Shown here in pieces: positions 17,191-49,982 of a DNA stretch of 64,000 bases. This stretch comes from Pseudoflavonifractor sp. MSJ-37 (GTDB taxonomy: Bacteria > Bacillota > Clostridia > Oscillospirales > Oscillospiraceae). The stretch covers positions 186,001 to 250,000 of the forward strand of contig NZ_JAHLPP010000001.1 of NCBI RefSeq assembly GCF_018917965.1, given 5' to 3'. The position numbers and the translations under genes are program-made. Position 1 is the first letter of the stretch. Each line of letters opens with the position of its first letter. The notes below the pieces were generated by a model, which was not told the DNA's origin, made no database searches, and saw nothing but the letters and a program-made list of their open reading frames with translations.

Positions 17191-17222
17191 GTCTGGAAAG
17201 CCCCGCTTCGGCGGGGCTTCCT
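17191..17222 (+). terminator. acpP terminator hairpin, left copy of a direct duplication
   Basis: AAGCCCCG, then CTTCGG, then CGGGGCTT form a very stable UUCG-type hairpin 16 bp after acpP. The T-run is weak (TTCCT). Apart from a 2-nt indel, the same sequence recurs at 17452-17481, with the structured element between the two. Confidence 0.7.
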
Positions 17223-17451
17223 CAGCGTGTCGAACCAGTTCGACACGCTTCTCAGAAATACAAGCATTTCTTCGATAGGATGCAGGCCGCCGCGCGCACT
17301 CGCTGTGCTCGCATGGTTGCAGCCTGAGAAGCGTTTTTTCTGAGGCACATGTCCTCAGAAAAAACGCCTTACATCTGATCCCGTCACCTGCGGGTGACGG
17401 AACTCTGCGAGGCTCATACATCGTTCGACGGAAGAAATGACTTTTTTGACA
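17223..17451 (+). repeat. Structured dispersed element, copy 1 (plus orientation)
   Basis: A non-coding block that fills most of the acpP-rnc gap. It holds, in order: a GTGTCGAAC/GTTCGACAC hairpin; an 11-bp outer stem ACGCTTCTCAG/CTGAGAAGCGT that encloses GAAAT/ATTTC and a GC-rich section; a 15-bp stem GCGTTTTTTCTGAGG/CCTCAGAAAAAACGC; a CCGTCACC/GGGTGACGG hairpin; and a final T-run (GACTTTTTT). A clearly homologous copy lies at 48766-49025 in reverse orientation. No open frame in it looks protein-like. It may be a structured RNA or a small non-autonomous mobile element. Confidence 0.8.
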
Positions 17452-17481
17452 GTCTGAAGCCCCGCTTCGGCGGGGCTTCCT
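17452..17481 (+). repeat. Right copy of the duplicated acpP terminator
   Basis: It repeats 17191-17222 with only a 2-nt deletion. It lies directly after the structured element and 30 bp before rnc. Because the matching element at 48766-49025 is flanked by a different terminator pair, this sequence belongs to the site and not to the element. Confidence 0.75.
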
Positions 17482-46763: not shown

Positions 46764-48560
46764 TCAGCCCTCGTGGGCCTTCCACTGCTCGATGGGGGCG
46801 TAGTACTTCTGGCGGGCAGCCTGGAACCGGAGGTCGAACTCCTTGTCCTCGCCGTGGTGCAGGGCGTGCATATAGGCGTGGGAATCGGTGCGGATCAGAG
46901 AGTCCGGGGGCGCGGTCTCCCGGACGATATACAGGGCGATGTTGGAGCAGTGGTCGGAGATGCGCTCCAGATTGATGAGCAGCTCCAGGAACTGGGTGCC
47001 CTGCTCGATGGTACACTCGCCGGTCTTGAGACGCTCGATGTGGCGGATGCGCAGTTCGTCCCGCATCAGGTCCACCACCTCCTCCACCGGCTCCACCTCC
47101 ATGGCCAGAGCCTGAGAGCGCTGGGTATAGCAGTCCAGCGCCTTGTCGATGGTCTCGCCCACGGCGCCGGTCATGGCCTCCACCTCTTTCCTGGCGGCGC
47201 CGGAGAAGTGGAGCCCCCGCTCATGCAGGGCCACGGCGCAGTCGGAGATGTTCACGGCGTAGTCACCGATCCGCTCGAAGTCGGACAGGGTGTGCAGGAG
47301 CTCGGAGACCTTGGCGCTGTCCTCCGGAGAGAGGGATGCCCGGTCGCTGAGGCGGACCAGATAGCTGTCCAGCAGGCTCTCCAGCTTGTCCAGGGCGGCC
47401 TCGGTCTCCTTCAGCCGTTCCAGCTTCTTGGGGTCGAACTTGTCCTCCAGCAGCTCCACCGCCAGACGGTAGTTCTCCTGGGCGAAGCGGCCCATCTGGA
47501 CCACCGTGTCATGGGACTTCTCCAGCGCCAGAGCGGGGGTGGCCAGGAAGCGCTCGTCCAGCACGGACACGTCATGCTGCTCGGAGTCGCCGGGGATGAT
47601 GTGCTCCACCAGGAACACCAGCACGTCCCGGAAGGGGAGCAGGAGGATCGTACAGCCCAAGTTGAAGGCCAGATGCAGGTTGGCGATGCTGCCACGGTCC
47701 ATGAGGCTGGTCCAGAAGGGGAAGTGGAAGAGGGCGTTGCCCACATACAGCGCGATCAGGAACACCAGCGTGCCCACCACGTTGAAGAGCAGGTGGATGC
47801 AGGCGGTGCGTTTGGCGTTCTTGCTGGCGCCGATGGCAGACAACAGAGCCGTGACGCAGGTGCCGATGTTCTGGCCCATGATGAGAGGGATCGCCACGTT
47901 GAACGTGACCACGCCGGTGGAGGTCATGGCCTGGAGGATGCCCATGGAGGCGGAGGAGCTCTGGAGCAGGGCCGTCACCAGCGCGCCCACTACCACGCCC
48001 AGGAGGGGGTTGGAGAAGGACACGAAGAGCTCCTGGAACTCGGGCATCTCCTGGAGGGGCGCCACGGCGATCTCCAGGGTGTGCATCCCGATGAACAGGA
48101 GGCCCAGGCCCAGCACGATTTGGCCGATGGTCTTTTTGTGCCCGCCCCGGATGAACATATAGAACAGGATGCCGATCACCGCCAGGATGGGGCCCAGGGC
48201 GGCGGGCTTGAGCAGGAGCATCAGGGGGTTGTCCGAGGAGATGTCGCCCAGCCGCAGGAGCTGTGCCGTCACCGTGGTGCCGATGTTGGCGCCCATGATG
48301 ATGCCCACGGTCTGACGTAGCTTCATGATGCCGGCGTTGACGAAGCCCACGCACATGACGGTGGTGGCGGCGGAGCTCTGGATCAGGCCGGTGACCAGCG
48401 CGCCCAGCAGGACGCTCTTGAACACGTTGCTGGTCAGCCGCTCCAGGATGGTCTCCAGACGGCCGCTGGAGAGCTTCTCCAGACCCTCGGTCATCGTGGA
48501 CATACCGAACAGGAACGTGGCGACTGCGCCGAGCATCGTGATGATGTCTATCAGATCCAC
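46764..48560 (-). CDS. Na/Pi cotransporter family protein with C-terminal PhoU domain
   Basis: A 598-residue membrane protein on the minus strand. It has about nine helices containing the two inverted SLC34-like repeats, marked by QSSAATTVMCVGFVNAG and QSSSASMGILQAM. A cytosolic PhoU-like helical domain (about 350-570) probably senses or regulates phosphate uptake. I chose the GTG at 48560 because AAGGAGG lies 7 bp upstream; the open frame extends further but crosses that site. Protein begins MDLIDIITMLGAVATFLFGM. Confidence 0.93.
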   Translation of the reverse strand: MDLIDIITMLGAVATFLFGMSTMTEGLEKLSSGRLETILERLTSNVFKSVLLGALVTGLIQSSAATTVMCVGFVNAGIMKLRQTVGIIMGANIGTTVTAQLLRLGDISSDNPLMLLLKPAALGPILAVIGILFYMFIRGGHKKTIGQIVLGLGLLFIGMHTLEIAVAPLQEMPEFQELFVSFSNPLLGVVVGALVTALLQSSSASMGILQAMTSTGVVTFNVAIPLIMGQNIGTCVTALLSAIGASKNAKRTACIHLLFNVVGTLVFLIALYVGNALFHFPFWTSLMDRGSIANLHLAFNLGCTILLLPFRDVLVFLVEHIIPGDSEQHDVSVLDERFLATPALALEKSHDTVVQMGRFAQENYRLAVELLEDKFDPKKLERLKETEAALDKLESLLDSYLVRLSDRASLSPEDSAKVSELLHTLSDFERIGDYAVNISDCAVALHERGLHFSGAARKEVEAMTGAVGETIDKALDCYTQRSQALAMEVEPVEEVVDLMRDELRIRHIERLKTGECTIEQGTQFLELLINLERISDHCSNIALYIVRETAPPDSLIRTDSHAYMHALHHGEDKEFDLRFQAARQKYYAPIEQWKAHEG

Positions 48561-48607
48561 ACCATTTCCTCCTTGATCTCGATCATAGGGAAGCACACTT
48601 TGAGGCT

Positions 48608-48734: not shown

Positions 48735-48765
48735 AAAAAGGACCGTCCCCCAGCGGGGGACGGCC
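48735..48765 (-). repeat. Downstream copy of a duplicated terminator
   Basis: A 31-bp sequence identical to 49026-49056. On the minus strand it is a stem of GGACGG-type arms followed by TTTTT, so it can still terminate. Confidence 0.88.
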
Positions 48766-49025
48766 GCAGACGGTCGAAAAAGTCCGGTCTCCCGTTGAGT
48801 GAGACCGGAGCCTCGCAGAGTTCCGTCGCCCGCAGGCGACGGAATGAGAGGTAAGGTGTTTTTTCTGAGGACATGTGCCTCAGAAAAAACTCTTCTCAGG
48901 CCGCTGGTGTGCGAGCAAAGCGAGTGCGCGCGGCGGCCTGCATCCCCCTCGAAGAAATGCTGGTCCGTTCTTTGCAAAGAATGGGCCAGCATTTCTGAGA
49001 AGCGTGTCGAACTGGTTCGGCACGC
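48766..49025 (-). repeat. Structured dispersed element, copy 2 (minus orientation)
   Basis: Read on the minus strand it aligns along its whole length with 17223-17451: the opening GTTCGACACGCTTCTCAGAA section, the GC-rich GCAGGCCGCCGCGCGCACTC part, the TTTTTTCTGAGG/CCTCAGAAAAAA stem, the CCGTCGCC/GGGCGACGG stem, CTCTGCGAGGCTC, and the T-run followed by GTCTG. Differences are mostly within stems: the GAAAT hairpin is lengthened to about 12 bp, and a CCGGTCTC/GAGACCGG stem before the T-run makes a good terminator. It fills most of the 512-bp gene gap. Confidence 0.82.
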
Positions 49026-49056
49026 AAAAAGGACCGTCCCCCAGCGGGGGACGGCC
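49026..49056 (-). terminator. Terminator of the membrane-protein gene at 49073, upstream copy of the duplication
   Basis: On the minus strand, GGACGG-type arms form a GC-rich hairpin (CCGTCCCCC/GGGGGACGG) 17 bp after the stop codon, followed by TTTTT. The identical 31 bp recur beyond the structured element at 48735-48765. Confidence 0.9.
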
Positions 49057-49072: not shown

Positions 49073-49846
49073 TCACATGAGCTTCACGGTGTAGTACACC
49101 GCCATCGCCAGGAGCCACACGGCCAGCACGCCGTAGAGCATCATGGTGGCGCCCATCACCAGGCCGATGACCTGGACCAGCGCCGCCACCAGACCGGTGG
49201 CATAGATCATGGTGTAGTTGGCCTCCTCCGGGAGGACCTCCAACTTCCGGCCCTTCCAGGTCAGCACGCCGTCCCCGTTCTGGAGAGCGTGGGCGATCAG
49301 CGCTACGGCCACCAGAAGGACCACCTCAGCGGCCAGATAGCCGTACACCGCCGTGGGGTGCGCCACCCGGCGGTCCAGCAGGAACAGGCCCAGGAAGCCC
49401 GCCGCGCTCATGACGGCCATGGCGAAGAATTCCCGCTGATAGAGGTAGTACACCAGCGCCAGCGCCGCCAGACAGGGCACCGCCACGTAGAGGACCTTGA
49501 TGCCCGTGCCCGCGTAGAGCTTGACCGCCACGGCACAGACGGCCAGCACGCCCAGCACAGTGGTCACCACCTGGGGCAGGAGCTTATGGGGGCCCTTCTT
49601 CCAGGAGACCACCCACCAGACCAACCCGGCCAGGAAGCACACCGGGAGCGCCACCGCCAGCACATCGAACACGCTCCGAAGCGCCACCGCGATCTGGATA
49701 TCCTTCACTTTATAATCGGCATAATACCGGTTGAGGAGCAAAAGCAGAGCCTCTAGAACAACAGAGCCGCCGATCCAGATGAGGACGCGGTTCATCGCCG
49801 CTTCCTCCTGCTGTTTGGCCTGGTCCGCTCTTTCTCTCTTATCCAT
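49073..49846 (-). CDS. Multi-spanning membrane protein of unknown function
   Basis: A 257-residue protein with a charged N-terminus (MDKRERADQAKQQEEAAMNR) and about seven hydrophobic helices spread from residue 20 to the end. No transport or catalytic motif is recognisable. The ATG at 49846 has AGGAG 8 bp before it. It has its own promoter and terminator, and is divergent from apbE. Confidence 0.75.
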   Translation of the reverse strand: MDKRERADQAKQQEEAAMNRVLIWIGGSVVLEALLLLLNRYYADYKVKDIQIAVALRSVFDVLAVALPVCFLAGLVWWVVSWKKGPHKLLPQVVTTVLGVLAVCAVAVKLYAGTGIKVLYVAVPCLAALALVYYLYQREFFAMAVMSAAGFLGLFLLDRRVAHPTAVYGYLAAEVVLLVAVALIAHALQNGDGVLTWKGRKLEVLPEEANYTMIYATGLVAALVQVIGLVMGATMMLYGVLAVWLLAMAVYYTVKLM

Positions 49847-49890
49847 GCATTCATCTCCTGTGTCATGCAACGTTAGTCTCGCATTCGTAT

Positions 49891-49919
49891 ATTTTAGCAG
49901 ATGCTCCCTGATTTTGCAA
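49891..49919 (-). promoter_or_regulatory. Promoter for the membrane-protein gene
   Basis: On the minus strand TTGCAA (49914-49919), 17-bp spacer, TAAAAT (49891-49896). Confidence 0.82.
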
Positions 49920-49952
49920 CAGGAAAAACCCGCTTTTATGTCGCCTTGGATA

Positions 49953-49982
49953 TTTACCGGGCCCGTCCTGATATGGTACAAT
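49953..49982 (+). promoter_or_regulatory. Possible apbE promoter
   Basis: TTTACC (49953-49958) and TACAAT (49977-49982) with an 18-bp spacer. It is divergent from the promoter at 49891-49919. Confidence 0.45.

Follow-up and report, generated by a model that had tools for sequence, protein, structure and literature searches.

A miniature IS1182-related element flanked by duplicated terminator hairpins in Pseudoflavonifractor sp. MSJ-37

Two copies of one terminator around a short element

Why would a gene be followed by the same transcription terminator twice, with an element of a few hundred base pairs in between? This question is raised by positions 48735 to 49056 of the window, i.e., the whole 64,000-nucleotide stretch of Pseudoflavonifractor sp. 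MSJ-37 DNA that was analyzed. Here, a 31-bp sequence, AAAAAGGACCGTCCCCCAGCGGGGGACGGCC, is present at 48735-48765 and, with 100% identity, at 49026-49056 (start-to-start spacing of 291). Read on the - strand, each repeat contains an 11-bp, GC-rich stem, followed by TCCTTTTT, in full agreement with an earlier note that had described both as intrinsic terminator hairpins with a T5 run. Only 16 nt separate the upstream repeat from the end of the - strand gene at 49073-49981, and the 260 bp between the repeats, containing no plausible gene, fold as a chain of hairpins (z of about -12 on either strand). The locus is made up of the following parts:

46764..48596, - strand: downstream gene, Na+/Pi cotransporter with PhoU domains
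48735..48765, - strand: distal copy of the terminator hairpin, with T5 (target-site duplication)
48766..49025, - strand: miniature element of 260 bp without transposase, one of 30 genome copies
48767..48784, + strand: terminal inverted repeat CAGACGGTCGAAAAAGTC, the right end in element orientation
48809..48822, - strand: near-invariant motif AACTCTGCGAGGCT, after hairpin A
48820..48845, - strand: internal hairpin A, covarying in relatives
48858..48890, - strand: internal hairpin B, GTTTTTTCTGAGG...CCTCAGAAAAAAC, with the strongest conservation of all hairpins
48897..48940, - strand: internal hairpin C, covarying in relatives
48953..48996, - strand: internal hairpin D, AGAAATGC...GCATTTCT, of differing length among copies
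49002..49025, - strand: left element end with subterminal hairpin E, GCGTGCCGAACCAGTTCGACACGC, including the left terminal repeat
49026..49056, - strand: proximal copy of the terminator hairpin, downstream of gene 49073-49981 (target-site duplication)
49073..49981, - strand: upstream gene, whose terminator is the target; a 302-amino-acid ORF without Pfam match

At its left end, this copy is atypical in that the CA of the usual CAG is absent. Hairpin D takes one of a small number of distinct lengths (about 18, 21, or 44 nt), which looks like the outcome of deletions between the two arms.

The element family in the genome

A search of the genome (18 contigs, 2.58-Mb assembly) yielded 30 copies of the element, and the same 30 were recovered independently with a pattern of the central hairpin (up to three mismatches), the reversed control pattern giving none. 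Two of them, 48766-49025 and 17223-17456 (next to acpP), are located in the window. Most copies are 233 to 261 bp long and free of ORFs. With the element oriented so that most upstream genes point towards it, a full copy has the form CAGCGTGTCGAA...GACAGTCTG; its right end, when reverse complemented, reads CAGACTGTCAAAAAAGTC, which makes the two ends imperfect inverted repeats, CAGNNTGTCRAAAAAGTY, and both carry the terminal repeat CAGNNTGTCRAAAAAG. Short, ORF-free, present in many copies, and equipped with inverted ends and a target-site duplication, the element has the makeup of a miniature inverted-repeat transposable element (MITE). When the pattern of the ends was used to look for an autonomous version in the same genome, no further pair stood out clearly from background and the 30 known copies; the stretches separating neighboring copies resemble host genes.

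Several copies lie in pairs, 2 to 3.4 kb apart and with host genes in between (C2:156/158, 235/237, and 304/307 kb; C7:76/79 kb; C1:257/260 kb), which apparently exceeds the expectation for 30 copies in 2.6 Mb, and local hopping is possible. Separately, a (CTCTG)n short tandem repeat was observed at about 1300 to 1390 of L106 (contig C6, 10.3 kb); it closely precedes a truncated solo end of the element, which is directly adjoined by another hairpin.

Whole stem-loops are duplicated at the insertion sites

Among the copies for which both ends could be called, a direct repeat flanks 22 of 26 in this genome, all 22 repeats being stem-loops, and 32 of 57 in other genomes, where 31 are stem-loops, so that hairpin duplications were seen around 53 element copies altogether. 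When left and right flanks were deliberately mismatched, pooled over all genomes, the same score was reached in only 1 of 1,647 pairs; the flanking repeats are therefore not due to chance. With a median length of 31 bp, the repeats differ in sequence at every locus, bearing out the proposal that the element inserts at terminators and that a different terminator is duplicated each time. The duplications mostly end within a few nucleotides of the stem feet. As some automatic stem calls were clearly wrong, we relied on the position of these ends rather than on the correlation between duplication length and stem length, which, with all cases included, amounted to an r of 0.46. The suggestion that insertion always follows the T-run holds as far as the association with terminators is concerned; the actual point of insertion is usually the stem foot, after the first T or so. 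No clear duplication was found around about 7 of the 30 copies in this genome and nearly half of those elsewhere, which are decayed, truncated, or differently inserted.

In three cases, the duplicated hairpin has its loop in opposite orientations on the two sides: GTGT/ACAC in L007 (contig C5, 91 kb), AAGTT/AACTT in L038 (genome G031), and AGATT/ATCTT in L301 (genome G097). Such an inversion is possibly the trace of a cruciform intermediate or of later inversion of a palindrome. With only three cases, it was not counted as a recurring mark of the mechanism.

Empty sites

In the closest relative, the genes around 48766-49025 have a different arrangement, and in others they are separated from each other, rendering the empty site of this copy unreadable. 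For that reason, the acpP-rnc region and a thiolase terminator were used instead. At acpP, the arrangement in the window is as follows:

17198..17222, + strand: proximal hairpin copy, AAGCCCCGCTTCGGCGGGGCTTCCT
17223..17456, + strand: the other copy of the element in the window, between acpP and rnc
17457..17481, + strand: distal hairpin copy, followed by GTTTGAG

All eight congeners in which the acpP-rnc region was read (L095 to L100, L102, and L103; a ninth, L101, stands outside this count) possess one hairpin and no element, as exemplified by GGAAGCCCCGCTCAGGCGGGGCTTCCTGTTTTGA in L096. Likewise, AAGCGCCGGACCGCATCTGCGGCCCGGCGCTT occurs twice around the element at the thiolase terminator of MSJ-37, and in the closest relative, L321, only one hairpin, GCGGGCCGCAAATGCGGCCCGC, is present there. 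Empty orthologous sites, which the earlier note had advised looking for, are thus present at both loci. No element was found beside lepA in eight congeners (L307 to L314; 130 nt inspected).

These sites bear directly on whether the hairpins might instead belong to the element, as a repeated terminator-element-terminator cassette, or result from local recombination. In favor of such a reading, the hairpins do abut the element nearly always, and in a few palindromes the loops are inverted from one copy to the other. Against this, the hairpin is a different one at each locus, and in congeners the corresponding gene has just one hairpin, a similar one, and no element. We consider the cassette or recombination reading, contradicted as it is by the empty sites, very improbable. 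Because congeners have one hairpin and lack the element, the flanking repeats are target-site duplications of whole terminator hairpins. The finding as such is real and no artifact.

Relationship to IS1182

As the element itself encodes no transposase, as expected for a MITE, it was filed as IS1182-related rather than as an insertion sequence (IS). A search for IS1182 transposases turned them up in several relatives, besides a remnant in MSJ-37 itself. A broader search, with the L155 transposase (from a congener) as the query, then yielded copies whose ends match those of the element, i.e., IS1182 transposase loci with the terminal inverted repeat CAGNNTGTCRAAAA and transposases of roughly 480 to 530 amino acids. 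The element ends, CAGNNTGTCRAAAAAG, are the same as those of L154/L302, L155/L295, L297, L300, L301, and L305. In L297, L300, L301, and L155/L295, the target hairpin abuts the ends, as it does in the element, and at least three of these autonomous elements share the duplication of the whole hairpin: L297 is flanked by exact copies of AGAGGGGGAAAGATTTCCTTTCCCCCTCT (29-bp hairpin), L300 is flanked by exact copies of ACAGGTCCGGCATTTCAAATGCCGGACCTGT (31-bp hairpin), and L301 has the same hairpin on both sides, with the loop inverted between the copies. Other IS1182 copies have a hairpin at one end, carry a different one at each end, or are cut off by the contig border. In contrast to the element, these relatives carry a transposase, and homology between the two is confined to the ends (about 16 to 18 bp), with none seen outside them.

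In a tree of 15 transposases, which is small and has long branches, all eight IS1182 loci with element-type ends fall into one branch (support of 100/100), which also takes in L159 (ends not found). IS1182 members with GGGGCTG-type ends lie outside this branch, and their flanks lack a duplicated hairpin. The element is thus not a new and self-contained one, its ends and its target habit being those of this IS1182 clade.

In MSJ-37 itself, IS1182 is represented by a remnant only (C4:36536-36715), in which the terminal repeat CAGACTGTCAAAGGAT directly follows the hairpin AGGGCCGTTCCGGCCCT; the search of this genome returned no intact IS1182 transposase. An intact IS may possibly have been lost at a contig break of the assembly. 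The missing intact IS speaks for a different hairpin-preferring machinery, i.e., a group IIC intron or other retroelement, an HUH enzyme (IS200/IS605 or RAYT), or an IS110-type recombinase: group IIC introns are found inserted downstream of terminators, and IS200 and RAYT enzymes use hairpins. However, the group IIC intron, HUH, and IS110-type mechanisms are not known to produce duplications of whole hairpins. Moreover, neither the element nor its core matches any Rfam family, group II intron models included, and the paired inverted ends match those of IS1182 elements with the same duplication, which makes such a machinery improbable. Finally, IS1634 and IS1549 are known for long direct repeats of variable length, and an IS1634-type transposase was considered as the source. 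None over the family cutoff was detected in 60 genomes, nor in that of MSJ-37, and this absence, together with the IS1182-type ends, rules out this candidate for practical purposes.

In summary, we put at about 0.88 the probability that the element is a nonautonomous, IS1182-family MITE that has as its target a stem-loop in DNA, in most cases an intrinsic terminator, and duplicates it on insertion. At many loci, with empty sites for comparison, a target defined by structure has been duplicated, and this outcome is associated with a single IS1182 clade. As for the chemistry, an IS1182-type DDE transposase, by analogy with the relatives, would act on the element in trans and join it to the feet of the terminator stem-loop, conceivably through a cruciform intermediate; gap repair would then copy the single-stranded stem-loop on both sides, and since the whole stem-loop would be copied, the duplication would be as long as the hairpin.

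Comparison with known systems

The staphylococcal IS1182 family members IS1272 and TnSha1 enter stem-loops, terminators included, and delete them (PMC4923244, PMC5678879). They resemble the present system in their IS1182-family transposase and in a stem-loop target that has no fixed sequence and is often a transcription terminator, but they differ from the element described here, a nonautonomous derivative of 230 to 260 bp. IS1272, moreover, takes out the target hairpin wholly or partly without duplication, whereas here the whole hairpin is doubled: a hairpin stands on both sides of the element and one in the empty site, which is not stem-loop replacement of the IS1272 type. A hypothetical "pathway b," in which joining of the 3' ends of the element to the 5' feet of the stem-loop would duplicate the latter in its entirety, was sketched in the same context (PMC5678879), and the repeats and ends described above fit this pathway. 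Hence, while the hairpin-targeting IS1182 members in the open-licence literature delete the hairpin, and duplication there is hypothetical, duplication is the mode observed here.

Bacterial MITEs such as BOX, RUP, Chunjie, and QMITE have been reviewed as AT-rich elements that prefer AT-rich intergenic targets (PMC10969869). The element shares with them its small size, lack of a transposase, inverted ends, many intergenic copies, and stable secondary structure; unlike those MITEs, it targets GC-rich hairpins of terminators, and its duplication extends over the hairpin. Insertion beside terminator hairpins in the sense orientation is typical of group IIC introns and is in this respect similar, but the element has no ribozyme domain (Rfam models) and no reverse transcriptase and duplicates the whole hairpin.

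Orientation and the host terminator

The order of gene, hairpin, element, and hairpin, which the earlier note had drawn from two loci, proved to be the rule, with the left neighbor reading towards the element in 28 of the 30 copies in MSJ-37 (neighboring genes were predicted by codon usage). Many of these 28 copies sit in convergent gene pairs, which look alike in both orientations and are uninformative. In tandem gene pairs, which are informative, sense and opposite orientations number 17 and 2, respectively, in this genome and 8 and 4 in other genomes. The orientation bias is therefore clear in MSJ-37 but not absolute, and of the supposition that the orientation is always the same, the bias survives and the "always" does not.

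In the 10 nt spanning the end of the hairpin, the distal copy contains a mean of 5.2 T's versus 2.7 in the proximal copy; i.e., the T-run is mostly retained by the distal hairpin and usually lost by the proximal one. The copy at 48766-49025, with T5 on both hairpins, is atypical in this respect. Since the distal hairpin keeps the T-run, termination of the upstream gene would probably be preserved after insertion, with the element placed inside the transcribed 3' region.

The conserved core

Alignment with copies from other genera showed that distant copies have hairpins A, B, and C and the near-invariant AACTCTGCGAGGCT in common. This core was found in many Oscillospiraceae records (e.g., Pseudoflavonifractor gallinarum, Intestinimonas, Flavonifractor, and Dysosmobacter), and many of the copies there lack recognizable ends. 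Changes on both sides were observed in 23 of 27 pairs; none of 500 shuffles reached the observed values, and sliding the partners caused a sharp drop. In the hairpins at 48820-48845, 48858-48890, and 48897-48940 and their relatives, this strong covariation comes almost without G-U pairs, which is unusual for structured RNA.

These properties raise the possibility that the core is in the first place a structured RNA (a 3' untranslated region [UTR] or small RNA) that acquired IS1182 ends and is conserved by virtue of its RNA function. The two-sided changes, the wide occurrence of the core, often without recognizable ends, and the bias to sense orientation all point that way. Yet, wobble pairs are rare and without strand bias (10 G-U and 19 A-C among 1,000 cells), antisense-strand energies are lower in 30 of 38 cases, and an Rfam family is lacking. 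The near absence of wobble intermediates is more in keeping with hairpins conserved at the DNA level, or with correction inside palindromes, than with an RNA read from one strand, without settling the matter. We regard a primary RNA function as conceivable but tentative; it is a question of the cargo and is compatible with the transposition model. Somewhat more doubtful still is the broader idea of a mobile 3'-UTR module, in which the T-run would have been moved to the distal hairpin, the host terminator would have become that of the element, and the conserved, covarying core, cotranscribed in sense with many host genes, would have a selected function across the Oscillospiraceae, at the level of either RNA or DNA hairpins.

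Significance

For the IS1182 family, these loci provide natural cases, with empty sites, of an outcome that had previously only been sketched, namely, duplication of a whole, structure-defined target, with a duplication length that follows the hairpin. This explains how the element could reach the 3' ends of many genes, that of acpP among them, and leave the terminators in place. It also offers a testable system for the recognition of cruciform or single-stranded hairpins by a DDE transposase and draws attention to a conserved structured core in abundant gut bacteria.
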